A stretch of DNA of 64,000 bases from assembly GCA_000069925.1 (NCBI GenBank), contig AM422018.1, forward strand, positions 806,001 to 870,000, given 5' to 3'. Positions 12,026 through 52,328 of the stretch are shown one piece after another. The position numbers and the translations under genes are program-made. The notes beneath the pieces are model-generated. The model ran no database searches. It was given only the letters and a program-made list of their open reading frames with translations, and was not told the origin of the DNA. Origin of the DNA: Candidatus Phytoplasma australiense (lineage in GTDB: Bacteria; Bacillota_I; Bacilli_A; Acholeplasmatales; Acholeplasmataceae). Each line of letters starts with the position of its first letter. The stretch's first letter is position 1.

Positions 12026-13117
12026 TTAATTATTTTCATTATTTTTTGTATTAAATTTCTTAGTGTAAAGCGTGATATATCTTTGTTTTGGGTTGAAGTG
12101 AAGGTAGTAATTTTTCATTTCATCTTTGGGATATGTAGAATATTTGGGGTCTATGATATGACAACGAACTTCATCCATGAAGAAGTCTTTATCTTCTTCA
12201 ATTAACCATTTCGGGCCTTCGTATTCGAGTTCTGTGTAGTGGTTTGAAGGGTCATTGATAAACATATCATCAAATTGTGAATCATCATCTTTATTTCTTG
12301 TATGGAAAGTTCTAAAAAAATCAATCCTGCTATCTTTTACTTCCCATTTTTCAAAAGGGTTTTTCATAAACGGCATTATATCATTTGGCTCATATTCACG
12401 GTGATGTCCGCGACCAAGGCCATTGAGACCGTAGAAAGTGTATTTAACTTTAATCATTTGGTGGCCCAAAACAAGGTGATTAACATCATGACTATAACTT
12501 TGACAAGGACTACCTTTCCAATCTTTTGTGGCCCCAAATTCTGCATTGGGGTCATAACCATCTGCTTTATAATATTTCTTAATTTGGTAGTTATCATCTC
12601 TAGAACGGTATCCTTCAAACCATTCAGATTCAATTTCTACTTTCGGTTCAGAAATAGTATAAGTTTTGGGTTTTGAATTTGTTATATCGTATTTATTGTC
12701 TAAAAATATAAAACCACCAAAAATAGCAATTATACAAAGCATGATAATATAATATATAATTATAGCTTTTATTGGATTTCTTTTTGTATATTTTTTAGCT
12801 TTTAATTTTCCTGTCAACATTTGATTTTGTGATAATTCTGCTTGTTTTTGGTTTAATTCAGTTTGAATAGTATTTATTTCTTCTTGTAATTCAGTTTTTT
12901 CTTGAACTGATAAAGCTTTATTATTTACTAACTCAGCTATTTTTTGGTTTAATTTTTCTTGTTTAGTTATTGTCTCAATTTCAATTTGTAATTTAATATT
13001 TTCTACATTATTTAATTTATTATTTACGTGTTTTTGAACAACCCAAATCAATAAAGGACCCAATCCAAAAAAAACTCCTAAAATACCTATAATAACTAAT
13101 ACTTTAAATAACTCCAT
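12026..13117 (-). CDS. Two-TM coiled-coil protein sharing its C-terminal domain with the AAA+ protein
   Basis: 363 residues. An N-terminal membrane helix (about 5-28) is followed by a coiled coil (40-108, many NQKQAEL-type heptads), a second membrane helix (about 118-141) and a soluble C-terminal half. The last 140 residues, beginning MIKVKYTFYGLNGLG, are almost identical to the C-terminus of the AAA+ protein at 16721-18838, and the DNA of the two regions is a 421-bp direct repeat (12038-12458 and 16724-17144). An additional piece before it (ESEWFEGYRSRDDNY to VNHLVLGHQ) is unique. Last gene of the operon. Function not recognised; probably acts at the membrane with the AAA+ protein, through a shared partner or self-association. 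Confidence 0.7.
   Translation of the reverse strand: MELFKVLVIIGILGVFFGLGPLLIWVVQKHVNNKLNNVENIKLQIEIETITKQEKLNQKIAELVNNKALSVQEKTELQEEINTIQTELNQKQAELSQNQMLTGKLKAKKYTKRNPIKAIIIYYIIMLCIIAIFGGFIFLDNKYDITNSKPKTYTISEPKVEIESEWFEGYRSRDDNYQIKKYYKADGYDPNAEFGATKDWKGSPCQSYSHDVNHLVLGHQMIKVKYTFYGLNGLGRGHHREYEPNDIMPFMKNPFEKWEVKDSRIDFFRTFHTRNKDDDSQFDDMFINDPSNHYTELEYEGPKWLIEEDKDFFMDEVRCHIIDPKYSTYPKDEMKNYYLHFNPKQRYITLYTKKFNTKNNENN
12038..12458 (-). repeat. 421-bp direct repeat, copy 1 (copy 2 at 16724-17144)
   Basis: The offset is a constant 4,686 bp with only a few base differences (H/Q, E/K and N/T changes near the joint). It encodes the shared C-terminal domain of the two proteins and runs into the 3' non-coding side by only a few bases. 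The abrupt joint at 12458/17144 marks a recent copying event. Confidence 0.9.
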
Positions 13118-13178: not shown

Positions 13179-13203
13179 GGTAATGCAAAAAAATTGCATT
13201 ACC
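13179..13203 (-). promoter_or_regulatory. Perfect hairpin over a stop codon
   Basis: 10-bp stem GGTAATGCAA/TTGCATTACC with a 5-A loop; it covers the TAA of the coiled-coil gene. No T run follows, so it is more likely an RNA-stability or partial-attenuation element than a terminator. Confidence 0.6.
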
Positions 13204-16200
13204 GACCAAACCATGTTTTAACTACATCCCATTTACTAGAAACAGCCGCAGCACCAGCAATTACACCACCAACAGTTCCACCAACAACCGTACCTATAGG
13301 CCCCGCAGCACTTCCCCAAGCAGCTCCCATCATCACACCAGCTTTGGTGGAAACACCTATGGTAATCGCAGTACCTACGTTTTTTACAGCATCTTCCCAA
13401 TGTTTTTCTTTTTCTTTTAATTGTTCCGAATCATTGGTTAATTTTAAATTTTTGCCTTGCAATTTAACAATCTTTTTTTCCAATCTTATTTTTGTTGCAA
13501 CGTGCGCTTTTTGTTCAGCTTTTAATTGGGCTTTTAGTTTATTGATTTCGTGTAATAACTCTTTGTTATTACCACCCATCGCCCCATTTGCATCTTCAAG
13601 TCCTGCAATTGCCCCTTCTAGTTGTTGAATCTTCATTGCTTGTTGCTTGAAAGTTTCTATATTGTTTTCAATTTCGGCAGTTAATTTTATAATTTGTTCT
13701 GCTTGTTCTTGAATTGTTTCTTGTAATTGTTTAATTTCTTCGTCTTTTTGTTTGATTGTTTCTTGCAATTTAGTTTCATTGGCTTCTAAATTAGTAATTT
13801 TACCCTTTAATTCTTTTATTTGAGCTTCTTTGTGATTTAATTGTTTAACTAATGCTTCATCAACGTTACCATTTTTAACCAATTCAACTTGTATCTCTTG
13901 CATCTCTTTTTCTAGTTGATTGTTTTCAGTTTTAGTTGCATCAAGTTCTTGTTGGATTTTAGTTAAATCATTAGTATATTTTTCTTTTAAGTTTTTGTTT
14001 TCTAATTTTAAAGTATAAATTTCACTTCTAAAACCTTGTTCTTTAATTTCTAGTTTTTGCATTTCGTTTTTTAAAGTTTTAATATGATTTGCTTTATTAT
14101 TTAATTCTTGTTGCAAACTATCATCTGGTGTTTGATTTTCTAATAATTGATTATATTCTAGTTGAGTTTTTTTTAAATTAGTTTTATAATTTGATAATTC
14201 TTGAGATATATTTTTTAAGTTTTCTTTTGCTTCATCAAGTTTGATTAAATTTTGTGGTGGTTCGGTCTGTGAGGTTGGTTCGCTAAAAATTAAATTAGCT
14301 CCATTAGTGGAATATGGTATATTTCTCATATTAATAGAAGGTTCGCAATAATATTTACCTGGGGATAGTTCTATACTTTCTCCTTGTATGGTATTTCTTC
14401 TAATCATCTCATTATATGTTCTTAGACTTCTTGGAATATAGGGTAATCCAGTTTTATCAAAATCAATCTTTGGAACAATTTTATATGTGAAAGGTTTATC
14501 ATTCCAAAAACGAGGGAATTGGATTTCTTTACTACTAGTGTCATAACTATATTCTTTTTGATTTTTTGATTTTTGCCAATCTGTTATTGTTGTGTCATTT
14601 TCTAAAAATGTTATTGTTTGTAATAAGTTATCTTTATTTGCTGTTAAAATCCCTATTGTTTTGTTAATTTCATCTAATTTTGCTTGTTTAGCTTTTAACT
14701 CTTTTTGTAGTTGTTTAGCATTTTCATTGTTTTTTTCAATTTGTTCTTTTAGTTTTTGGGTTTCATTTTCTAGTTCAGAAACCATGTTTTTATAATTTGT
14801 AATTTGTTTTTGGATTTCTTCCAAAGTTTTTACATGTTGTTCTCTTAGGCTCATAGTTTCTGTTTGGGTTTTTGATAATTGTTGTTTTAAGTTTTTTTCG
14901 TTTTCTTGTAATTGTTTGATTTCTCCTTCTTTAAGTGATAATTGAACTTCAAAATTAACTTTTTCTTGATTGATGTTGTTTTTTAGGTTATTGATTTCTG
15001 AATTTAATTGCTTGACTTCATTTGCTGATAAATCTTTTTGTTCAGTTAATTTTCTTTCTTTTTCTTCCAATTCAACTTCTTTATCAAATATTTTTTGTTG
15101 TAATTTGTCTAAATCTTGTTTATTTGAAGCTAATTGGTTTTCTAGTTGAATTTTTTGACTTTGCATTTGTTCTATTTCTTTATTTTTGTCTTCGGTAATT
15201 TTTTCTTGTCTATTTAAATTGGTTTGAATATCTTTAACTTTATTGTTTAATTCTTGTTGTTTTTCTTCGCTAGAAGTTTTGATTTGTTCTAAATTATTTT
15301 CTTGGGTTTGGATAAAATTGTTTAATTCAGTTTGTTTTTTTGCTGCTTCTTCTAATTTTTGATTTAAGTTATTTAATTCTTCGTTTTTAGATGTTAAATT
15401 AGTATTTATGTCCGCAATTTGCTTAGTTAATTGTTGTTTTTCTGCATCTGATAAGTTTTTTTGTTCTTCTAATTGCTTGGTTTTTTGTTGTAAATTTTCC
15501 TTATCTTTATTGATAACATCATATAATTCTTGTCTTAATTCTGCGTGGGCTTCTTGGTCTTTTTTTAAATTGTTTAATTCTTCGTTTTTAGATGTTAAAT
15601 TAGTATTTATGTCCGCAATTTGCTTAGTTAATTGTTGTTTTTCTGCATCTGATAAGTTTTTTTGTTCTGCTAGTTCTTTTTCTAAATTATCTTTTTGATT
15701 TTTTATATTTAACATTTCTAATTGTTGTGCTTGTAAATTAGCTTCAAAATAATTTCTTTCTTGCAACAATTGTTCGTTTTTGGCTTTTTCATGTTGCAAT
15801 AACTCCTCAACTTGTTTTTGCATGTCTGGATTCAATAAACTTTTATTATACTCTTCTTTGTTAATTTCTTTTTGTTTATGAATTGGTTGTTTTAAAGTTG
15901 GTTGAGGAGTTGGGGTTTCATCATTTAATTCAGTTGATTTGGTTGTTTTTTTTTTTTTTTGAGTTTCTTGTTTTTCTGAATCTCTGTTATTTTCAGTTAA
16001 TTTATCTGGTTCAATTTGTTTGTTTGTATTATCTACTTTGTTTTCTACTTGTTGTGGTGGAGATGTATTTTTTGGTGGTTCTTGGTTGGTTTTTTCGGTA
16101 AGTGTAATAGTTCCTATATAAGCGATAGTACTTATTAAAACTGTTCCTCCTAAGAATGTGCCAATTCCTGGGATTAAACAACATGCAGCCGCAAGTAAAC

Positions 16201-16693
16201 AACCACCAACAAGCCATAAAACTTTTGATGCAATAGCAGAATATTTGGGGTCTATTCCTGCATTTTCTAAAGCTTTTTTTGTTTTATCATCTAGATTATG
16301 ACATGTATCTTTAATAAATTGCCAACATGTATCAACAACTCCGCCAATTTTTGCAGCTACTTCAGGGAAAAACTTAGAAATTACAAGCCATATTCCTCCA
16401 CCAATTAGTATGAATGGTAATAAAATAAGGGTTATTTTGACAATTGATTTGATTAATTTTACAAACCAATTCTCTTTTTTGGTTTCAACAATTATTTTAG
16501 TAGGTTGGAGATTTTTTTTGATTATAGTTTTTGAAGGTTTTTTTATTTTTTTAATTTTGGAAACAGTCTTTTTGGGAGTTGGAATTATTTTTTTAGTTTT
16601 TTTAGTAGGAAGTTTCGTTTTTATTTTTTTGATAGTTTTTTTAATTGGTTGTTTTTGTTTTGATTTTTTAGTTTTGATTATTTTTTTCGCCAT
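13199..16693 (-). CDS. Giant membrane-associated coiled-coil protein (smc-like, no ATPase)
   Basis: 1,164 residues. Order: lysine-rich head (1-70, many KK pairs); hydrophobic helices at about 78-108 and 150-195 with small-residue patches; a long coiled coil from about 270 to 690 of Q/E/K/N-rich heptads; a folded island at about 725-815 (DWQKSKNQKEYSYDT to GKYYCEPSINM); a second coiled coil (830-1080); and a glycine/alanine zipper-like tail (about 1100-1150, GAAWGSAAGPIGTVVGG). Two copies of a 33-residue unit containing NLSDAEKQQLTKQIADINTN lie at about 346-435. PMU genes of this kind are often labelled smc, but there is no Walker A, hinge or signature motif. Coiled coils combined with hydrophobic and glycine-zipper segments also recall phage tape-measure proteins. 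ATG at 16693 with AAAGAGAG upstream, 28 bp after the AAA+ gene. Confidence 0.7.
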   Translation of the reverse strand: MAKKIIKTKKSKQKQPIKKTIKKIKTKLPTKKTKKIIPTPKKTVSKIKKIKKPSKTIIKKNLQPTKIIVETKKENWFVKLIKSIVKITLILLPFILIGGGIWLVISKFFPEVAAKIGGVVDTCWQFIKDTCHNLDDKTKKALENAGIDPKYSAIASKVLWLVGGCLLAAACCLIPGIGTFLGGTVLISTIAYIGTITLTEKTNQEPPKNTSPPQQVENKVDNTNKQIEPDKLTENNRDSEKQETQKKKKTTKSTELNDETPTPQPTLKQPIHKQKEINKEEYNKSLLNPDMQKQVEELLQHEKAKNEQLLQERNYFEANLQAQQLEMLNIKNQKDNLEKELAEQKNLSDAEKQQLTKQIADINTNLTSKNEELNNLKKDQEAHAELRQELYDVINKDKENLQQKTKQLEEQKNLSDAEKQQLTKQIADINTNLTSKNEELNNLNQKLEEAAKKQTELNNFIQTQENNLEQIKTSSEEKQQELNNKVKDIQTNLNRQEKITEDKNKEIEQMQSQKIQLENQLASNKQDLDKLQQKIFDKEVELEEKERKLTEQKDLSANEVKQLNSEINNLKNNINQEKVNFEVQLSLKEGEIKQLQENEKNLKQQLSKTQTETMSLREQHVKTLEEIQKQITNYKNMVSELENETQKLKEQIEKNNENAKQLQKELKAKQAKLDEINKTIGILTANKDNLLQTITFLENDTTITDWQKSKNQKEYSYDTSSKEIQFPRFWNDKPFTYKIVPKIDFDKTGLPYIPRSLRTYNEMIRRNTIQGESIELSPGKYYCEPSINMRNIPYSTNGANLIFSEPTSQTEPPQNLIKLDEAKENLKNISQELSNYKTNLKKTQLEYNQLLENQTPDDSLQQELNNKANHIKTLKNEMQKLEIKEQGFRSEIYTLKLENKNLKEKYTNDLTKIQQELDATKTENNQLEKEMQEIQVELVKNGNVDEALVKQLNHKEAQIKELKGKITNLEANETKLQETIKQKDEEIKQLQETIQEQAEQIIKLTAEIENNIETFKQQAMKIQQLEGAIAGLEDANGAMGGNNKELLHEINKLKAQLKAEQKAHVATKIRLEKKIVKLQGKNLKLTNDSEQLKEKEKHWEDAVKNVGTAITIGVSTKAGVMMGAAWGSAAGPIGTVVGGTVGGVIAGAAAVSSKWDVVKTWFGR

Positions 16694-16720: not shown

Positions 16721-18838
16721 TTAATTATTTTTTGTATTAAATTTCTTAGTGTAAAGCGTGATATATCTTTGTTTTGGGTTGAAGTGAAGGTAGTAATTTT
16801 TCATTTCATCTTTGGGATATGTAGAATATTTGGGGTCTATGATATGACAACGAACTTCATCCATGAAGAAGTCTTTATCTTCTTCAATTAACCATTTCGG
16901 GCCTTCGTATTCGAGTTCTGTGTAGTGGTTTGAAGGGTCGTTGATAAACATATCATCAAATTGTGAATCATCATCTTTATTTCTTGTATGGAAAGTTCTA
17001 AAAAAATCAATCCTGCTATCTTTTACTTCCCATTTTTCAAAAGGGTTTTTCATAAACGGCATTATATCAGTTGGCTCGTATTTACGGTGCTGTCCGCGAC
17101 CAAGGCCATTGAGACCGTAGAAAGTGTATTTAACTTTAATCATTCTTGCATCTTTAGGAGGTTTGAGGTATTTTAAAAAACCTTGTTTCCATGATTCATA
17201 TTGTTCTTCACATTCTTTTCTGCGTGCTTTAATTTCTGTAATTGATTTGTTGATTCTTTGTTTAGTGTCAATTACTTCATCCAAATCAGAAGGTAACATT
17301 ACTTCATGGTTTGGATTTAGGGTTTTGAATTTATTAGTTTTATTATAGGCATCATTAATGATAGTTGTTAAATCGCGGTTAGAGTAATTTTTGCCTTTAC
17401 ATCTGTTTGCAATTTCTTTTAAATGAAGGTAAGTGTGATAACTGATTTGATAAGGTTCTATCAAGAATTTTAAGAAACCTTCAATTTCTTCATCTTTAAT
17501 TAAATCAATTTTAATTTCTTTGCTAAAACGACTTCTGAGGGCTTTATCAATTTGGTCTAGGTGATTAGTAGCTCCCATTAAGACAATTTTTTTGTCAGAA
17601 CGGTTAAAACCATCTAATTTAGTTAAAATGTTATTAACAATATTAATACTTGTTTTATTAGAATTTTTGTCTTCACGGTTAGCCATGCCACTAATTTCGT
17701 CAATAAAGATAATAGTTTTATCATGTCTTTCAGCTTCCATCCAAATCTTTTCCCATTCTTCTACTCCTTCGCCGACATAGGTTTTATCTAGTTTAGAAGG
17801 TTCAAATTCAATAAAATAGGCGTTGCATTCATTACTCAATGCTTTCAGTAAAAAAGTTTTTCCCGTACCAGGCGGTCCATATAATAAATATCCTTTGGGT
17901 CTTATTTTGTCAAAATTTACTAAATTGTTATTGGATTCTTTAAAATAAAAAATTAAATCCTCTAATTCTTCTTTTTCACTTTCCATACCATAAACGTCTT
18001 TAAAAGTAATTTGTTTTTTGGCGATTTTTTCAATATTTGGGTTTTTGATTGCTTCAATTTCATTTTGAAGTTGTTTAATTTGTTTATCAAATTGGATTAA
18101 TTGACCGTCTAAAAATAAATCATAACTTTTGAGATTTTGAACTTCTTGTGGGTTGTCTTGATGTTTAATTATTAGTTCTTTGATGTTTTCTTTGTTCGCG
18201 TTATTATAATTTATTGCTTGTTGTAAGTCAGATATTTTTTGATAAATAGTTTTGAATTGAGTAGTTTGTTTGGTTTCTGATTGGATGCTTTCAATTAGTT
18301 TCTTATTGTTTACTTGTGATTTTGTATTTTCCACTCTTTTTTTGGTTAATGGTTGGGTAGCTTCATTGATTTGTTCGCGTTGATTTGATAAATCAGCTAT
18401 TTTTTGAATTAAATTTTTTATTTCAGTTTCTAATTGGGATTTTGTTTCATCATTTAAATTAGTTTCTTTATTGTTTAATTCTTCGGTTTTTTGTTTTAAT
18501 TCTTGGTTGAGGTTGTTAATTTGAAGACTTAAAGTTTTGATTGTTTCTAAATTAGAGTTGATTTGTTGTGATAATTGGTTGTCTTCTTCTATAAGTTTTT
18601 TGTTATTGTTTATGTTTTGTTGATTGATTATTTCTAAATCTTTTAAACGTTTTTGGAGTTTATTAAGTTCTTCTTTTGCTTCTGAATCAAGTTGGTTATT
18701 GGGTGGTTGTGTTATTGTTGGGGTTGTTGATGATTTGGATTTGGTTTCTGTTTTAGATATTCCAACAATAAATAAAATCAACAAAATTAAACTAAATAAA
18801 GATAAGAAACTAAGATATATTTTGGTTTTAAGCTTCAT
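16721..18838 (-). CDS. Membrane-anchored AAA+ ATPase, FtsH-like without the protease
   Basis: 705 residues. One N-terminal membrane helix (7-27), a coiled coil (about 50-270) in place of FtsH's outer domain, then an AAA+ module: Walker A GPPGTGKT (about 319-326), Walker B IIFIDE (about 374-379), second region of homology with GATNH and the arginine finger in RSRF (about 436), and a helical lid (NYSNRDLTTIIND). Annotated hflB in related PMUs. FtsH continues with an M41 zinc protease holding HExxH; here no HExxH exists, and from about residue 565 the protein switches to a 140-residue domain shared with the protein at 12026. It may be an unfoldase, remodeller or motor. ATG at 18838 with AAAGGAG upstream. 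Confidence 0.85.
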   Translation of the reverse strand: MKLKTKIYLSFLSLFSLILLILFIVGISKTETKSKSSTTPTITQPPNNQLDSEAKEELNKLQKRLKDLEIINQQNINNNKKLIEEDNQLSQQINSNLETIKTLSLQINNLNQELKQKTEELNNKETNLNDETKSQLETEIKNLIQKIADLSNQREQINEATQPLTKKRVENTKSQVNNKKLIESIQSETKQTTQFKTIYQKISDLQQAINYNNANKENIKELIIKHQDNPQEVQNLKSYDLFLDGQLIQFDKQIKQLQNEIEAIKNPNIEKIAKKQITFKDVYGMESEKEELEDLIFYFKESNNNLVNFDKIRPKGYLLYGPPGTGKTFLLKALSNECNAYFIEFEPSKLDKTYVGEGVEEWEKIWMEAERHDKTIIFIDEISGMANREDKNSNKTSINIVNNILTKLDGFNRSDKKIVLMGATNHLDQIDKALRSRFSKEIKIDLIKDEEIEGFLKFLIEPYQISYHTYLHLKEIANRCKGKNYSNRDLTTIINDAYNKTNKFKTLNPNHEVMLPSDLDEVIDTKQRINKSITEIKARRKECEEQYESWKQGFLKYLKPPKDARMIKVKYTFYGLNGLGRGQHRKYEPTDIMPFMKNPFEKWEVKDSRIDFFRTFHTRNKDDDSQFDDMFINDPSNHYTELEYEGPKWLIEEDKDFFMDEVRCHIIDPKYSTYPKDEMKNYYLHFNPKQRYITLYTKKFNTKNN
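16724..17144 (-). repeat. 421-bp direct repeat, copy 2
   Basis: Partner of 12038-12458; encodes the substituted C-terminal domain of the AAA+ protein. The joint at 17144 lies exactly where the ATPase-specific sequence (YLKPPKDAR) ends. Confidence 0.9.
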
Positions 18839-24807: not shown

Positions 24808-25770
24808 ATGTCAGAAACACAAAAAATGCAAAAATTAAATAACAAAATAATATTATTACAAAATATGATTTCTCAAATTAAAACCATTGATAAAGAAATT
24901 GTTTTTAAATTAGTTAAACGTTTTTTCAAAACTCTCAATTTATCTACCATCCTAAGAACAATCAAAATCAACCGCAGCACTTATTACTATTGGCTAAAAA
25001 ATCAAGAAAAGAAACGATTACAACGCGAAAAATACCTTTTACAACAAAAACGTATCCAAGCTTTATGTTCTCGTTATCAATATTTTTACGGATATCGTAA
25101 AATAACTCATTTATATCAAAAAACTTTCAACGAACAAATCGCCAAAGAAAAAGTGTATCAAATTATGAAAGAAAATAATATTTGCTGCCGTTTAAGAATA
25201 AAAAAAGTCAAACGTGCATATAAAAACAACTTAAAACCTAAATTAAGTATAGCACCCAACCTTATCAACCGCGATTTTATTGCAACCAAACCGCTTCAAA
25301 AATTATTTACCGACATCACATTTTTCCCAACTCCTGAAGGTTTTGTTTATTTTTCTGCCATCATTGATTCTTTTAACAATCAAATAATCGCCTACCACAC
25401 CTCAAACCGCCAAGATAAAGAATTAATTTTAAATACAATCAAAAAATTACCCCCACTAAAAGACCCTTGTGTTATTCATTCCGACCGCGGCACGGTTTAC
25501 CAATCGCTCAAAGTACAAAATAAACTAATTAAAAAAGGCCTTTTAATCAGCATGTCCAGCAAAGCAACCCCACGCGATAACGCCGTGATTGAAAACTTTT
25601 TCGGCCAAATGAAAAGTATTTTATTCAACCAACATCCGTTTTTATTTCAACAAGAAGCACACGAAATTAAAAAAATTATCAATCGCTTCCCTTCTTTTTG
25701 GAATAAAAGATGGATGTTGGCTAAATTAAATAATTTATCGCCTTTAAAATATTCTCAATCCTTCAGATAA
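24808..25770 (+). CDS. tra5: IS3-family transposase (tra5), right copy
   Basis: 320 residues, same sequence as the copy at 3676-4638, with the complete D-D-E set (FTDITFF, HSDRGTVYQ, VIENFFGQMK). It points out of the element on the right. Upstream, TTGCCA..TATAAT-like AT-rich sequence (24745-24790) includes CAAATATGTTATAATATG, a probable -10. With one copy at each end facing outward, the two could mobilise everything between them as a composite element. Confidence 0.93.
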   Translation: MSETQKMQKLNNKIILLQNMISQIKTIDKEIVFKLVKRFFKTLNLSTILRTIKINRSTYYYWLKNQEKKRLQREKYLLQQKRIQALCSRYQYFYGYRKITHLYQKTFNEQIAKEKVYQIMKENNICCRLRIKKVKRAYKNNLKPKLSIAPNLINRDFIATKPLQKLFTDITFFPTPEGFVYFSAIIDSFNNQIIAYHTSNRQDKELILNTIKKLPPLKDPCVIHSDRGTVYQSLKVQNKLIKKGLLISMSSKATPRDNAVIENFFGQMKSILFNQHPFLFQQEAHEIKKIINRFPSFWNKRWMLAKLNNLSPLKYSQSFR

Positions 25771-26606: not shown

Positions 26607-26633
26607 GAAAAGACCGCTAAAAATAGCGGTCTT
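26607..26633 (-). terminator. Intrinsic terminator (copy 2)
   Basis: Same 10-bp stem as 8551-8578, ending the gene at 26632-27429. Confidence 0.9.
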
Positions 26634-27429
26634 ATTCTTTTTCTTTTCCCATGATTCTTAAAAGAAGGTTTACAATTCTTAAAAAAATGCTAATTAAAGT
26701 AGCGGCAAAAGCTAATGATACTTGCCATTCATATTTTTCTGGTAATCCTTGTTGAATCATTTGTTCAGTATAATCAAAATGAATAGCTAAATACATTGAT
26801 AAAAAACCTAACATAAATAAACTTAAAGGAATGGCCAAAATACTGTAATATAAAATATTTTCAATTGTGCCCACTCCAAAAAGAACAAAAAACAGACGAA
26901 TTAAATAAGTGAAAAATAAAGCGATTGAAATTATTTGCATAATTGTTGTAAATCTTTGAGTAACTTTTAAAGTACCTTTATAATAAGCATGAGCCATTAC
27001 ACAAAAAATAATCAAAGTTGAGAAAAGTGCGATAAAAACTATTTCTAATAAATTAGAATATATGCAATTAATGAAATGGAAAAAAATTCCTATTGTCAAT
27101 CCTTCTAGAACAGCAAAAAGACAAGAACACAGACGCGACATTTCTACACGTAGCATTGCAGCGATATAAAATATGCTAGTTGCAAAAGATGAAGTTAGAA
27201 AAATTACTTTTATCATCCATAAGTAAGGAAACTTTAATTGAGTCATTTTAAAAAGACTAAAAAAAGTTCCTGCAGTAAAAGCGGTGATTAATAAAAGTAA
27301 AATTGTTTTAAAAGCGACACCTTTGCGTGAAGCTTTGCGTTTGTAATCGGTTGTATCAGAAGAAGAAAGGAAATTATCATTAATTTTTTTAAATAAATCG
27401 TTAACTTTAGTGTTGTTGTTTGATTTCAT
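26632..27429 (-). CDS. Bax inhibitor-1/YccA-like membrane protein, copy 2
   Basis: 265 residues, about 98% identical to 7755-8552. Visible changes include S to A in the first membrane helix, D to G after HAYYK, R to I after TIMQ, and D to G in FGVDTIEN. The GLPEKYEW motif before the last helix is unchanged. Its own promoter region and AGAGGTAACT site are also duplicated, so it should be expressed. Confidence 0.65.
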   Translation of the reverse strand: MKSNNNTKVNDLFKKINDNFLSSSDTTDYKRKASRKGVAFKTILLLLITAFTAGTFFSLFKMTQLKFPYLWMIKVIFLTSSFATSIFYIAAMLRVEMSRLCSCLFAVLEGLTIGIFFHFINCIYSNLLEIVFIALFSTLIIFCVMAHAYYKGTLKVTQRFTTIMQIISIALFFTYLIRLFFVLFGVGTIENILYYSILAIPLSLFMLGFLSMYLAIHFDYTEQMIQQGLPEKYEWQVSLAFAATLISIFLRIVNLLLRIMGKEKE

Positions 27430-27559
27430 TTTAAGTTACCTCTATAATAAATTTAATTTTATACTTTTTAAAGTGTACTTATATATTATTTTTTTTGGTT
27501 TTTTTGTGTTTCGGTTGTTTGCCGAGCGTTGTTGTTTTGTGTGGTTTGTTTGTTAAAGA

Positions 27560-27583
27560 GAAAGGCCCGCTAGCGCGGACCTT
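27560..27583 (-). terminator. Intrinsic terminator after sigma-ssb (copy 2)
   Basis: Inverted copy of 7601-7625. Confidence 0.85.
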
Positions 27584-27663
27584 GTGAAATTTTGATATTT
27601 TATTATTTTCTTTTTTTGCAGTTATTAAAAGACATAAGTTAAAAAAGGATTATTAATGATTTA

Positions 27664-27975
27664 TTAGTTTTTAGGGTCTAAAAAGACGATATGTTTAATA
27701 ACAACTCTTACGTATGTTTTGGTTTCTTTGTTGTTATTGGTGTACTTTTGGACGTCGATTGGTCCTTCGGCGTATATTCTGGAACCTTTGCGTGTATATT
27801 GAGATAGGTTGTCGGCTTGCGTGCGGAAAGCGACGCAGGGTACGTATTGCACTTTATCTTTTATATTTACAGCTAAGTCAAAATCAACTTTAGCAATTTG
27901 TTCTCCTTTGCTGTTTAAAAATTCTTTTTTTGGGTCGTTTGTTAGACGGCCGATTAATTGGGTTCTGTTTAACAT
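27664..27975 (-). CDS. ssb: Single-stranded DNA-binding protein, copy 2
   Basis: 103 residues with the same truncated OB-fold form as copy 1; N13, Q26 and Y60 replace K, R and N. It lies 3 bp after the sigma gene and is coupled to it. Confidence 0.9.
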   Translation of the reverse strand: MLNRTQLIGRLTNDPKKEFLNSKGEQIAKVDFDLAVNIKDKVQYVPCVAFRTQADNLSQYTRKGSRIYAEGPIDVQKYTNNNKETKTYVRVVIKHIVFLDPKN

Positions 27976-27978
27976 TAG

Positions 27979-28650
27979 TTATTTTCTCCTTTTTTTGAAT
28001 ATTTTTTGTAATTTAATAATGCCATTTTCCCGGAGCTTAAATACCTGTCTCGGAGAAAAGTTTTCATTGTATTTCTTTTTTAATTCTTCCGCAATTTCTT
28101 CGGTGGAGCGAATAAATTTATTGTTATCTTCAACATCTTTTGCAGAAATTCCAAGACTTAATTTGATTACATCAAATTGCTTGGGAGTTAAATTTTTGGT
28201 TAATATTAGCACAAAGATGTCGTGATGCGCTTGTTTAAGCCATAGTTGATGAGGCGTAAGGATTTTGCTCCATTTGGGTTGTGTTGCTTCTTCCCATTCT
28301 TCAAAATCAACTTTATTTATTTTTTTATTGTTTTGCCGAGGCATTGCTGTTTGGTGGCATTTTTTAATGAGGCCTCTGATGTGAGATTTGATGTTTTTTG
28401 AAGCATAATAAATAAACTGGTCAATGTCTACTTGAAAATCATACCCTTCGAGGGCATTGATTAAACCTAAAACGCCTTCTTGAAATAAATCTTGTCTTTG
28501 AAGTATTGAGGGGAAGTATTTGAACTTACTAACTATTTTATTAACTAGTGGGTAATAAATTTCTACAAGTTGATTTCTGATTTGCAAATTTTTTTTATTT
28601 TTTAAAAATTCTTGAAATAATTCTTTTTTTCTATTTTCATCTGTCGGCAT
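27979..28650 (-). CDS. Sigma-70 family factor (PMU type), copy 2
   Basis: 223 residues, same domains as copy 1 (region 2 at 52-72, region 4 at about 183-215). G93 and T101 replace D and A between regions 2 and 4, and F replaces V before region 4. Same AAAGGAG site inside the hairpin 28657-28686. Confidence 0.85.
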   Translation of the reverse strand: MPTDENRKKELFQEFLKNKKNLQIRNQLVEIYYPLVNKIVSKFKYFPSILQRQDLFQEGVLGLINALEGYDFQVDIDQFIYYASKNIKSHIRGLIKKCHQTAMPRQNNKKINKVDFEEWEEATQPKWSKILTPHQLWLKQAHHDIFVLILTKNLTPKQFDVIKLSLGISAKDVEDNNKFIRSTEEIAEELKKKYNENFSPRQVFKLRENGIIKLQKIFKKRRK

Positions 28651-49517: not shown

Positions 49518-52328
49518 TTATCTTTTTGTTGATTTTGGATTAGGATTTTTTTTGCCTTGAGTGTAATAATATCCACTACCACTAATTAAAGCGACAACTA
49601 AAACTATTAATAAAGTCCATGACCAGAAGTATGTTTTGGTTGGTGGAGTCAATATACTACTTGGTGGAGCTTGTTGTATTCCGTAAACAACTTGGCCTTT
49701 AAAATTCTTAGTCTCTTCTTTAGTTGCTACTGTTACTGTTTTCTTATCGTTGTCAAAAGTAATTGTTACATCATTTAATGTAAGTGTTTGGTCTTTTGCA
49801 ATTTGTTCTAAAACAGCTTTTTTGTTTGCTTCTGTATCAAGATTTTCTAATGAAGGTAAAGTTACTTTTCGTGGTACTGTTGATGGTTCTAAAACATTGG
49901 ATAATTCTGATGCTTGGGTTTGTTGTAAGTTATATATAACTTCGCCTTGGTAACTAGATGTTGCTAAAGCTTTTACTTGTAATTTTTTATTGTTGTCAAT
50001 CAAAGTAATTTTAACATCCTCTAATTGAACTTGGCTATCAGTGGCTTTTTTAATTTTATCTAAAACTGATTGGCTTTGAAGATTAGTTCTTTCATTTTCT
50101 GCTAACTCAATTTGTGTTGTAGCTGCTGGTTTCAAAACATTAGGTAATTGTGGAGCTAAATTATATACAACATTACCTTGGTATCTAGTAGAACCTGATA
50201 CAGGGGCTACTGTTAATTGGTTGTTGTTCAAAGAAATTGTTACATCAGCGTTTGTAACAACTGGGTTATCGTTACTTAATCTAACTAATCCTAAAACAGC
50301 TTCTGTGTTAGGGTTATTTCTTTGTTCTGGAGTTAAATTAGGTTGTGTTGAATCTGGGTTTAAAACAGTATCTAATTGTTGTGGAGCTAAATTATATACA
50401 ACACTACCTTGGTATCTAGTAGAACCTGATACAGGAGCTACTGTTAATTGGTTGTTGTTCAAAGAAATTGTTACATCAGCGTTTGTAACAACTGGGTTAT
50501 CGTTACTTAATCTAACTAATCCTAAAACAGCTTCTGTGTTAGGGTTATTTCTTTGTTCTGGAGTTAAATTAGGTTGTGTTGAATCTGGGTTTAAAACAGT
50601 ATCTAATTGTTGTGGAGCTAAATTATATACAACATTACCTTGGTATCTAGTAGAACCTGATACAGGGGCTACTGTTAATTGGTTGTTGTTCAAAGAAATT
50701 GTTACATCAGCGTTTGTAACAACTGGGTTATCGTTACTTAATCTAACTAATCCTAAAACAGCTTCTGTGTTAGGGTTATTTCTTTGTTCTGGAGTTAAAT
50801 TAGGTTGTGTTGAATCTGGGTTTAAAACAGTATCTAATTGTTGTGGAGCTAAATTATATACAACACTACCTTGGTATCTAGTAGAACCTGATACAGGAGC
50901 TACTGTTAATTGGTTGTTGTTCAAAGAAATTGTTACATCAGCGTTTGTAACAACTGGGTTATCGTTACTTAATCTAACTAATCCTAAAACAGCTTCTGTG
51001 TTAGGGTTATTTCTTTGTTCTGGAGTTAAATTAGGTTGTGTTGAATCTGGGTTTAAAACAGTATCTAATTGTTGTGGAGCTAAATTATATACAACATTAC
51101 CTTGGTATCTAGTAGAACCTGATACAGGGGCTACTGTTAATTGGTTGTTGTTCAAAGAAATTGTTACATCAGCGTTTGTAACAACTGGGTTATCGTTACT
51201 TAATCTAACTAATCCTAAAACAGCTTCTGTGTTAGGGTTATTTCTTTGTTCTGGAGTTAAATTAGGTTGTGTTGAATCTGGGTTTAAAACAGTATCTAAT
51301 TGTTGTGGAGCTAAATTATATATAACACTACCTTGGTATCTAGTAGAACCTGATACAGGAGCTACTGTTAATTGGTTGTTGTTCAAAGAAATTGTTACAT
51401 CAGCGTTTGTAACAACTGGGTTATCGTTACTTAATCTAACTAATCCTAAAACAGCTTCTGTGTTAGGGTTATTTCTTTGTTCTGGAGTTAAATTAGGTTG
51501 TGTTGAATCTGGGTTTAAAACAGTATCTAATTGTTGTGGAGCTAAATTATATACAACATTACCTTGGTATCTAGTAGAACCTGATACAGGGGCTACTGTT
51601 AATTGGTTGTTGTTCAAAGAAATTGTTACATCAGCGTTTGTAACAACTGGGTTATCGTTACTTAATCTAACTAATCCTAAAACAGCTTCTGTGTTAGGGT
51701 TATTTCTTTGTTCTGGAGTTAAATTAGGTTGTGTTGAATCTGGGTTTAAAACAGTATCTAATTGTTGTGGAGCTAAATTATATACAACACTACCTTGGTA
51801 TCTAGTAGAACCTGATACAGGAGCTACTGTTAATTGGTTGTTGTTCAAAGAAATTGTTACATCAGCGTTTGTAACAACTGGGTTATCGTTACTTAATCTA
51901 ACTAATCCTAAAACAGCTTCTGTGTTAGGGTTATTTCTTTGTTCTGGAGTTAAATTAGGTTGTATTGAATCTGGGTTTAAAACAGTATCTAATTGTTGTG
52001 GAGCTAAATTATATACAACACTACCTTGGTATCTAGTAGAACCTGATACAGGAGCTACTGTTAATTGGTTGTTGTTCAAAGAAATTGTTACATCATTAAT
52101 TGCAACTGTTTTACCTTCAGCTACAAATAGATTTAAAACATCTTGATCTTGAGGTTTAGTTATTTGTGCTTCGGTTAAAGTAATTTGTGTTGTAGCTGCT
52201 GGTTTCAAAAAATTAGGTAATTGTGTTAGGCCTTCAGCAAACACACTCATTCCTACAGATAACAACATGAAAAGAGATAATAAATATAAATTAATTTTTT
52301 TGAAAAATGGTCTTTTAGATAAATTCAT
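49518..52328 (-). CDS. Surface protein with eight identical 77-residue repeats
   Basis: 936 residues. Sec signal peptide (1-31, FFKKINLYLLSLFMLLSVGMSVFA), a unique N-terminal unit, eight full repeats plus a partial ninth from residue 79, then two diverged relatives of the same unit, and a C-terminal membrane helix (about 900-920, WTLLIVLVVALISGSGYYYTQ) with a basic tail. This fits a protein anchored in the single membrane and facing outward. Each repeat holds DVTISLNNNQLTVAPVSGST and ends with SNDNPVVTNA; the diverged units (DVKITLIDNNKKLQVKA, DVTITFDNDKKTVTVA) show the ancestral form, a small beta-rich domain. ATG at 52328 with AAAGGAA upstream. Probably an immunodominant or adhesin-like protein; no known Imp, Amp or IdpA recognised. 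Confidence 0.82.
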   Translation of the reverse strand: MNLSKRPFFKKINLYLLSLFMLLSVGMSVFAEGLTQLPNFLKPAATTQITLTEAQITKPQDQDVLNLFVAEGKTVAINDVTISLNNNQLTVAPVSGSTRYQGSVVYNLAPQQLDTVLNPDSIQPNLTPEQRNNPNTEAVLGLVRLSNDNPVVTNADVTISLNNNQLTVAPVSGSTRYQGSVVYNLAPQQLDTVLNPDSTQPNLTPEQRNNPNTEAVLGLVRLSNDNPVVTNADVTISLNNNQLTVAPVSGSTRYQGNVVYNLAPQQLDTVLNPDSTQPNLTPEQRNNPNTEAVLGLVRLSNDNPVVTNADVTISLNNNQLTVAPVSGSTRYQGSVIYNLAPQQLDTVLNPDSTQPNLTPEQRNNPNTEAVLGLVRLSNDNPVVTNADVTISLNNNQLTVAPVSGSTRYQGNVVYNLAPQQLDTVLNPDSTQPNLTPEQRNNPNTEAVLGLVRLSNDNPVVTNADVTISLNNNQLTVAPVSGSTRYQGSVVYNLAPQQLDTVLNPDSTQPNLTPEQRNNPNTEAVLGLVRLSNDNPVVTNADVTISLNNNQLTVAPVSGSTRYQGNVVYNLAPQQLDTVLNPDSTQPNLTPEQRNNPNTEAVLGLVRLSNDNPVVTNADVTISLNNNQLTVAPVSGSTRYQGSVVYNLAPQQLDTVLNPDSTQPNLTPEQRNNPNTEAVLGLVRLSNDNPVVTNADVTISLNNNQLTVAPVSGSTRYQGNVVYNLAPQLPNVLKPAATTQIELAENERTNLQSQSVLDKIKKATDSQVQLEDVKITLIDNNKKLQVKALATSSYQGEVIYNLQQTQASELSNVLEPSTVPRKVTLPSLENLDTEANKKAVLEQIAKDQTLTLNDVTITFDNDKKTVTVATKEETKNFKGQVVYGIQQAPPSSILTPPTKTYFWSWTLLIVLVVALISGSGYYYTQGKKNPNPKSTKR
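50155..52094 (-). repeat. 231-bp tandem repeat array
   Basis: Eight complete 231-bp units and a partial ninth, nearly identical at DNA level. Units alternate between two types (S or N before VVYN, with linked silent T/C and A/G changes), so the array has grown by 462-bp pairs. Confidence 0.95.

Follow-up and report, generated by a model that had tools for sequence, protein, structure and literature searches.

The window analysed here is a stretch of 64,000 nucleotides that covers positions 806001-870000 of the 880-kb chromosome of Candidatus Phytoplasma australiense. It contains a module of three genes, all on the minus strand, which follow one another in the order ATPase, coiled-coil protein, partner. 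The first gene (16721-18838) encodes an AAA+ ATPase of 705 residues. An earlier reading made from the letters and open reading frames alone, here called the sequence-only reading, had singled out this gene; it is real, although its minus-strand orientation had been left unstated. About 30 bases past the ATPase stop codon begins the second open reading frame (13199-16693), which encodes a coiled-coil membrane protein of 1164 residues with hydrophobic segments. The third begins about 80 bases past the coiled-coil stop (12026-13117) and encodes a membrane protein of 363 residues with two transmembrane segments, called the partner below. A palindrome, TAATGCAA-TTTTT-TTGCATTA, lies at the coiled-coil stop codon, between the second and third genes (13181-13201, minus strand).

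The trio is found inside an element that also carries genes for a sigma factor, ssb, thymidylate kinase (tmk), DnaB and an IS3-type transposase (tra5), all recognised from their open reading frames rather than by profile search. This gene order and setting are those of a potential mobile unit (PMU) of phytoplasmas. The genes hflB, hp1/hp2 or smc/smc-like, and hflB-like are listed by position in type 1 and type 2 PMUs (PMC10210161, in the portion of the paper used here). The ATPase, coiled-coil protein and partner correspond to hflB, smc (hp) and hflB-like in that list, an identification that follows gene order and content, not locus tags. The genes and their order are the same, and the name "hflB-like" fits a partner whose C-terminus is common with that of hflB.

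Further repeated features lie in the window. The element is flanked by two near-identical copies, in opposite orientation, of a block with sigma-factor-like, ssb-like and membrane-protein genes (6534-8552, plus strand; 26632-28650, minus strand). Two identical IS3-type transposase frames of 320 residues, likewise in opposite orientation, are located near both element ends (3676-4638, minus strand; 24808-25770, plus strand). Farther away, 49518-52328 (minus strand) encodes a 936-residue protein with an N-terminal hydrophobic stretch, about eight near-identical repeats of some 77 residues and a C-terminal transmembrane segment. Its product looks like a repeat-variable surface protein.

The ATPase consists of a transmembrane segment, a long coiled stretch, one AAA module and a C-terminal domain (CTD) of 140 residues. 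Hydropathy places the single transmembrane segment at residues 9-27 (18758-18814, minus strand). As the sequence-only reading had held, the Walker A motif GPPGTGKT (residues 321-328; 17855-17878), the Walker B motif IIFIDE (residues 376-381; 17696-17713) and the arginine-finger motif RSRF (residues 435-438; 17525-17536) are complete, all on the minus strand, and an HExxH motif is absent from the sequence. The AAA family PF00004 is matched with E 1.6e-34, at 119.6 bits against a cut-off of 21.2.

Like FtsH (HflB), the protein has an N-terminal membrane anchor followed by one classical AAA module. It differs from FtsH in its long coiled N-terminal part and in having one transmembrane segment by hydropathy, where FtsH has two at its N-terminus. 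Against the FtsH family profile TIGR01241, with a cut-off of 600 bits, it scores 129.4 bits and aligns with profile positions 22-379 of 598 only. Its second region of homology, ATNHLDQIDKALRSRF (DKALRSRF), is without RPGRFDR, whereas the genome's real FtsH reads TAILRPGRFDR. The genuine M41-bearing FtsH genes of this genome lie elsewhere, at 486.7 kb and 158.7 kb. Single-sequence matches in the PDB favour the CDC48/p97 family. Judged by these motifs and profiles, the protein belongs with the classical AAA ATPases and is no FtsH. The earlier description of a membrane-anchored ATPase that lacks a protease and shares its C-terminus with a second gene of the operon is thus upheld, and only its label "FtsH-like" was loose. 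Elsewhere in the genome (contig C1, about 519383), an open frame of 2029 residues with an AAA module has a second region of homology nearer to that of the PMU ATPase than FtsH is.

The CTD occupies residues 566-705 of the ATPase (copy 1; 16724-17143, minus strand) and residues 221-360 of the partner (copy 2; 12038-12457, minus strand). The two copies agree at 137 of 140 amino acids and at 429 of the 438 nucleotides compared, a likeness far above chance. Homology starts at one ATG codon and stops around the stop codons. The near-identical domain of the sequence-only reading is therefore borne out, with its start moved from residue 565 to 566 and its 421-bp repeat replaced by the 438 nucleotides compared.

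This domain recurs widely. A search finds 30 matches in the same chromosome, 28 of them beyond the window pair and some of them fragments or split pieces. Matches also occur in 24 other genomes of the genus, and the rest of the family yields a single weak one (E 0.007). The 55 CTD stretches compiled lie mostly in pairs 3-5 kb apart, and the paired cases run ATPase, coiled coil (as one or several open reading frames), partner. Trios with the CTD on both end genes are present in PMUs of the ten phytoplasma genomes examined, this one and nine others. The module also exists in a second, more distantly related form, with an ATPase of about 766 residues and a partner of about 240-300 residues with one transmembrane segment; its CTDs are found at both places. 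No convincing CTD was found outside phytoplasmas in 88 genomes of the family, 296 of the class, viral contigs and plasmids, and the phage matches listed are to the AAA part rather than to the CTD. On these searches, the CTD is confined to phytoplasmas.

Nor does the CTD resemble a known binding domain in Pfam, family-profile or Foldseek searches. A low-confidence AlphaFold2 model built from five sequences is mostly beta strands, with a pLDDT of 45.6, and Foldseek returned nothing at E<=0.001.

Within the CTD, residues 33-83 form a centre of about 50 amino acids that changes faster than any other part of the module. It corresponds to residues 599-648 of the ATPase (16895-17044, minus strand) and residues 254-303 of the partner (12209-12358, minus strand). 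Between elements of this genome, omega is about 1.0-1.2 for the centre, against 0.12-0.35 for the CTD flanks; alignments of the centre have gaps, and recombination among alleles can inflate its value. In the AAA core, omega is 0.12 for three copies and 0.03-0.24 in sliding windows over nine. Relative to the flanks, the centre has lower pS and higher pN.

The boundaries of the cassette can be seen in both genes. Identity between ATPases of different elements is 89-100% over residues 36-560 and drops to 73-86% from about residue 561, at the CTD boundary. In the partner the same kind of drop begins at about residue 246, roughly 25 residues into the CTD. Synonymous divergence climbs at the same positions in both genes, so that the cassette must have had a separate history. 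Three partner centres (L068, L069 and L072) look like mosaics that join halves of other alleles from the same genome.

Variable between elements, the centre is matched within them. In 23 elements, the centres of the ATPase and of its own partner are 93.5% identical, compared with 72.2% when partners are shuffled within each genome. None of 20000 shuffles reached the identity of the true pairs, the maximum being 91.0%. The own partner is the best centre match in 21 of the 23, in both directions. In this genome alone, centre identity is 97.8% within the same element versus 68.9% otherwise, and the between-element distances of ATPase centres and of partner centres are correlated (r=0.987, Mantel p=0.0002). 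Five further pairs include four that are matched and a fifth that is matched up to a frameshift. The whole set comes from ten genomes of one genus.

Copies that are no longer intact follow the same rule. The frame-shifted copies L067 and L115 are still matched, and the broken copies L067 and L068 are matched once each frame is read separately; in L068 both genes have one and the same mosaic allele. Clear mismatches are limited to two of the 28 elements, L040 and L054, the latter with an N-terminally truncated ATPase. When a tree is built from the centres, the two copies of a pair are sisters in 22 of 28 cases, and four of the six failures involve alleles present in at least two elements. Sister pairs are found in 3 of 21 cases in the tree of the N-terminal flank and in 8 of 27 in that of the C-terminal flank. 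Thus a three-gene module bears one domain on both end proteins, with a centre that varies between elements yet is matched within each.

Agreement between the copies extends to synonymous sites, since pS is 0.034 within the same element versus 0.16 otherwise. The copies are therefore kept alike by exchange of DNA and not by codon-by-codon adaptation. The sequence-only reading had the domain copied between the two proteins; as a single event this does not hold, because both genes have long carried the domain, and its copies have been re-homogenised independently from one element to the next.

Not every repeat of the operon is homogenised in this way. The coiled-coil gene contains two tandem repeats of 192 bp (15283-15474 and 15484-15675), which are 80% alike in the window. 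Across elements such repeats are 80-83% alike within an element and about 97% alike to their orthologues in other elements, so that repeats of the operon are not homogenised in general. As a control, these adjacent repeats fall short of the CTDs in length and have diverged further, and the comparison is helpful rather than final.

Near its C-terminus, the coiled-coil protein has a second variable segment (13401-13600, minus strand), which is a candidate third player in the CTD system. It co-varies moderately with CTD type (Mantel r 0.54, p 0.001 for that window alone, uncorrected for the 35 windows scanned). From this segment to the partner CTD, most of the intervening sequence shows no co-variation with CTD type, and 14251-14600, the remaining variable part of the coiled-coil gene, is uncorrelated with that type (r 0.03).

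Membrane topology can be predicted for the partner. Its second transmembrane segment (residues 119-137; 12707-12763, minus strand) is preceded by a strongly basic stretch of net charge +7. The positive-inside rule puts the CTD outside the cell for every partner type, whether with one transmembrane segment or two. For the ATPase, the charges on either side of its segment leave the topology ambiguous.

The model proposed here is that the CTD centre is a recognition or docking cassette private to each element and kept matched by gene conversion. We give it an even chance of being correct. In this model, the cassette would change through mutation or through recombination with other elements, and repeated gene conversion inside the element would then re-match its two copies. 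The CTD would serve as an element-specific recognition surface, whose two copies would interact directly or would both be required to bind one target. Only an ATPase and a partner from the same element would work together, among the ten or so sister elements of a cell, and the ATPase would then act, by pulling or remodelling, on whatever its cognate partner keeps at the membrane. A docking or oligomerisation role had already been suggested from the sequence of this locus; it is a reasonable inference, and the telling evidence for it is the matched hypervariability, a pattern absent from that earlier suggestion. Counting against docking are the low confidence of the predicted CTD fold and the mismatched elements L040 and L054, as well as the matching at synonymous sites, since conversion can be neutral.

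Neutral concerted evolution is the main rival to docking. According to this explanation, the centre is a loop under little constraint and diverges freely between elements, recombination of long direct repeats a few kilobases apart is all that homogenises the two copies, and the matching has no function. An omega near 1 in the centre fits this rival, as do the matched synonymous sites and the fact that dead copies match as well. Moreover, any conversion tracts in a 420-bp island of homology would be expected to span its centre more often than its edges. The flanks of the CTD and the AAA core are strongly constrained, however, which implies that the CTD is used, and a centre with pS below and pN above that of the flanks is not what the rival favours. 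The same is true of the adjacent coiled-coil repeats that escaped homogenisation, with the reservation about their length and divergence given above. Differences within elements are also less biased towards amino-acid changes: a McDonald-Kreitman-like comparison gives 11N:7S within pairs versus 94N:17S between elements (p 0.04 in this genome, p 0.09 over all genomes). This leans suggestively to constraint on the match. Neutral conversion is weakened but alive; that it is the whole explanation seems doubtful to us.

Another explanation retains a function for the centre and moves its object outside the cell. Both CTDs might face outward and bind the same fast-changing molecule of a host, a vector or a rival element; the copies would then match since each has to see that one target, and the many elements would give the cell a repertoire. 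The predicted outward position of the CTD in every partner type would suit this explanation, and an omega of about 1 with some ten alleles per genome is what diversifying pressure would give. Phytoplasma membrane AAA+ ATPases are described by Seemueller et al. 2013, as cited in PMC6981957 and PMC3984173, with some predicted to face outward; in Ca. Phytoplasma mali this applies to about half of the AAA+/HflB proteins (PMC3984173, PMC6981957, in the portions used here). On the other hand, the topology of the ATPase is ambiguous by its flanking charges, an outward AAA ring would need ATP from the host, no target is known, and the searches described above found no homology of the CTD to known binding domains. 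A shared external target is therefore unlikely.

Two further possibilities are highly improbable. One is that the CTD is a diverged FtsH protease domain, as might be expected from the annotation of the gene as hflB in related PMUs. The sequence-only reading had raised this itself, and it proves not to be so: besides the missing HExxH, the ATPase has no Pfam match to M41 at E<=1, and hhalign gives a probability of 0.04% when its CTD is compared with the M41 domains of the same genome, whose true FtsH genes are separate. M41 in disguise was rejected on these grounds. The other is that the fusion is a local assembly artefact, a unique joint at a place where other PMUs would have M41. Other PMUs bear the CTD on both genes instead, and recurrence of the same fusion across many elements and genomes led to its rejection.

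If the docking model holds, it may be extended. A private code, written on ATPase and partner, could allow each element to distinguish its machinery or its copies from the ones that belong to sister elements. This code might serve element-specific assembly, exclusion or transfer, with gene conversion synchronising both copies while they diversify, and the variable segment of the coiled-coil protein may belong to it. This extension is speculative and probably goes too far.

A comparable concept is known from polymorphic self-recognition receptors such as TraA of Myxococcus, in which the fit between variable domains determines who can partner with whom. In that system identical receptors of two cells are matched, whereas the match described here concerns two different proteins of one operon, so that the likeness is one of concept.

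Nearer in kind are the phytoplasma AAA+ proteins of Seemueller et al. 2013 (via PMC6981957 and PMC3984173), which are likewise membrane-anchored and without zinc and protease domains. In what those two papers relay, as far as used here, a C-terminal cassette common with a partner gene is unmentioned. Likewise, the PMU literature represented by the consulted portion of PMC10210161 treats the genes as separate markers and is silent on the domain common to ATPase and partner, on the hypervariable centre of that domain and on the matching within each element. A literature search whose coverage left out most subscription journals found no report on the shared CTD or its matching, and nothing relevant on gene conversion between paired domains.

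The AAA+/HflB genes of phytoplasmas have been linked with virulence for years, to our knowledge with the mechanism lacking. The matched cassette points to two PMU proteins that should be studied jointly, and to 50 residues that would be expected to decide their specificity. One genome provides a natural panel of cognate and non-cognate pairs of ATPase and partner. If the matching is functional, the module would be an unusual case in which gene conversion holds a diversifying recognition code equal in two different proteins.
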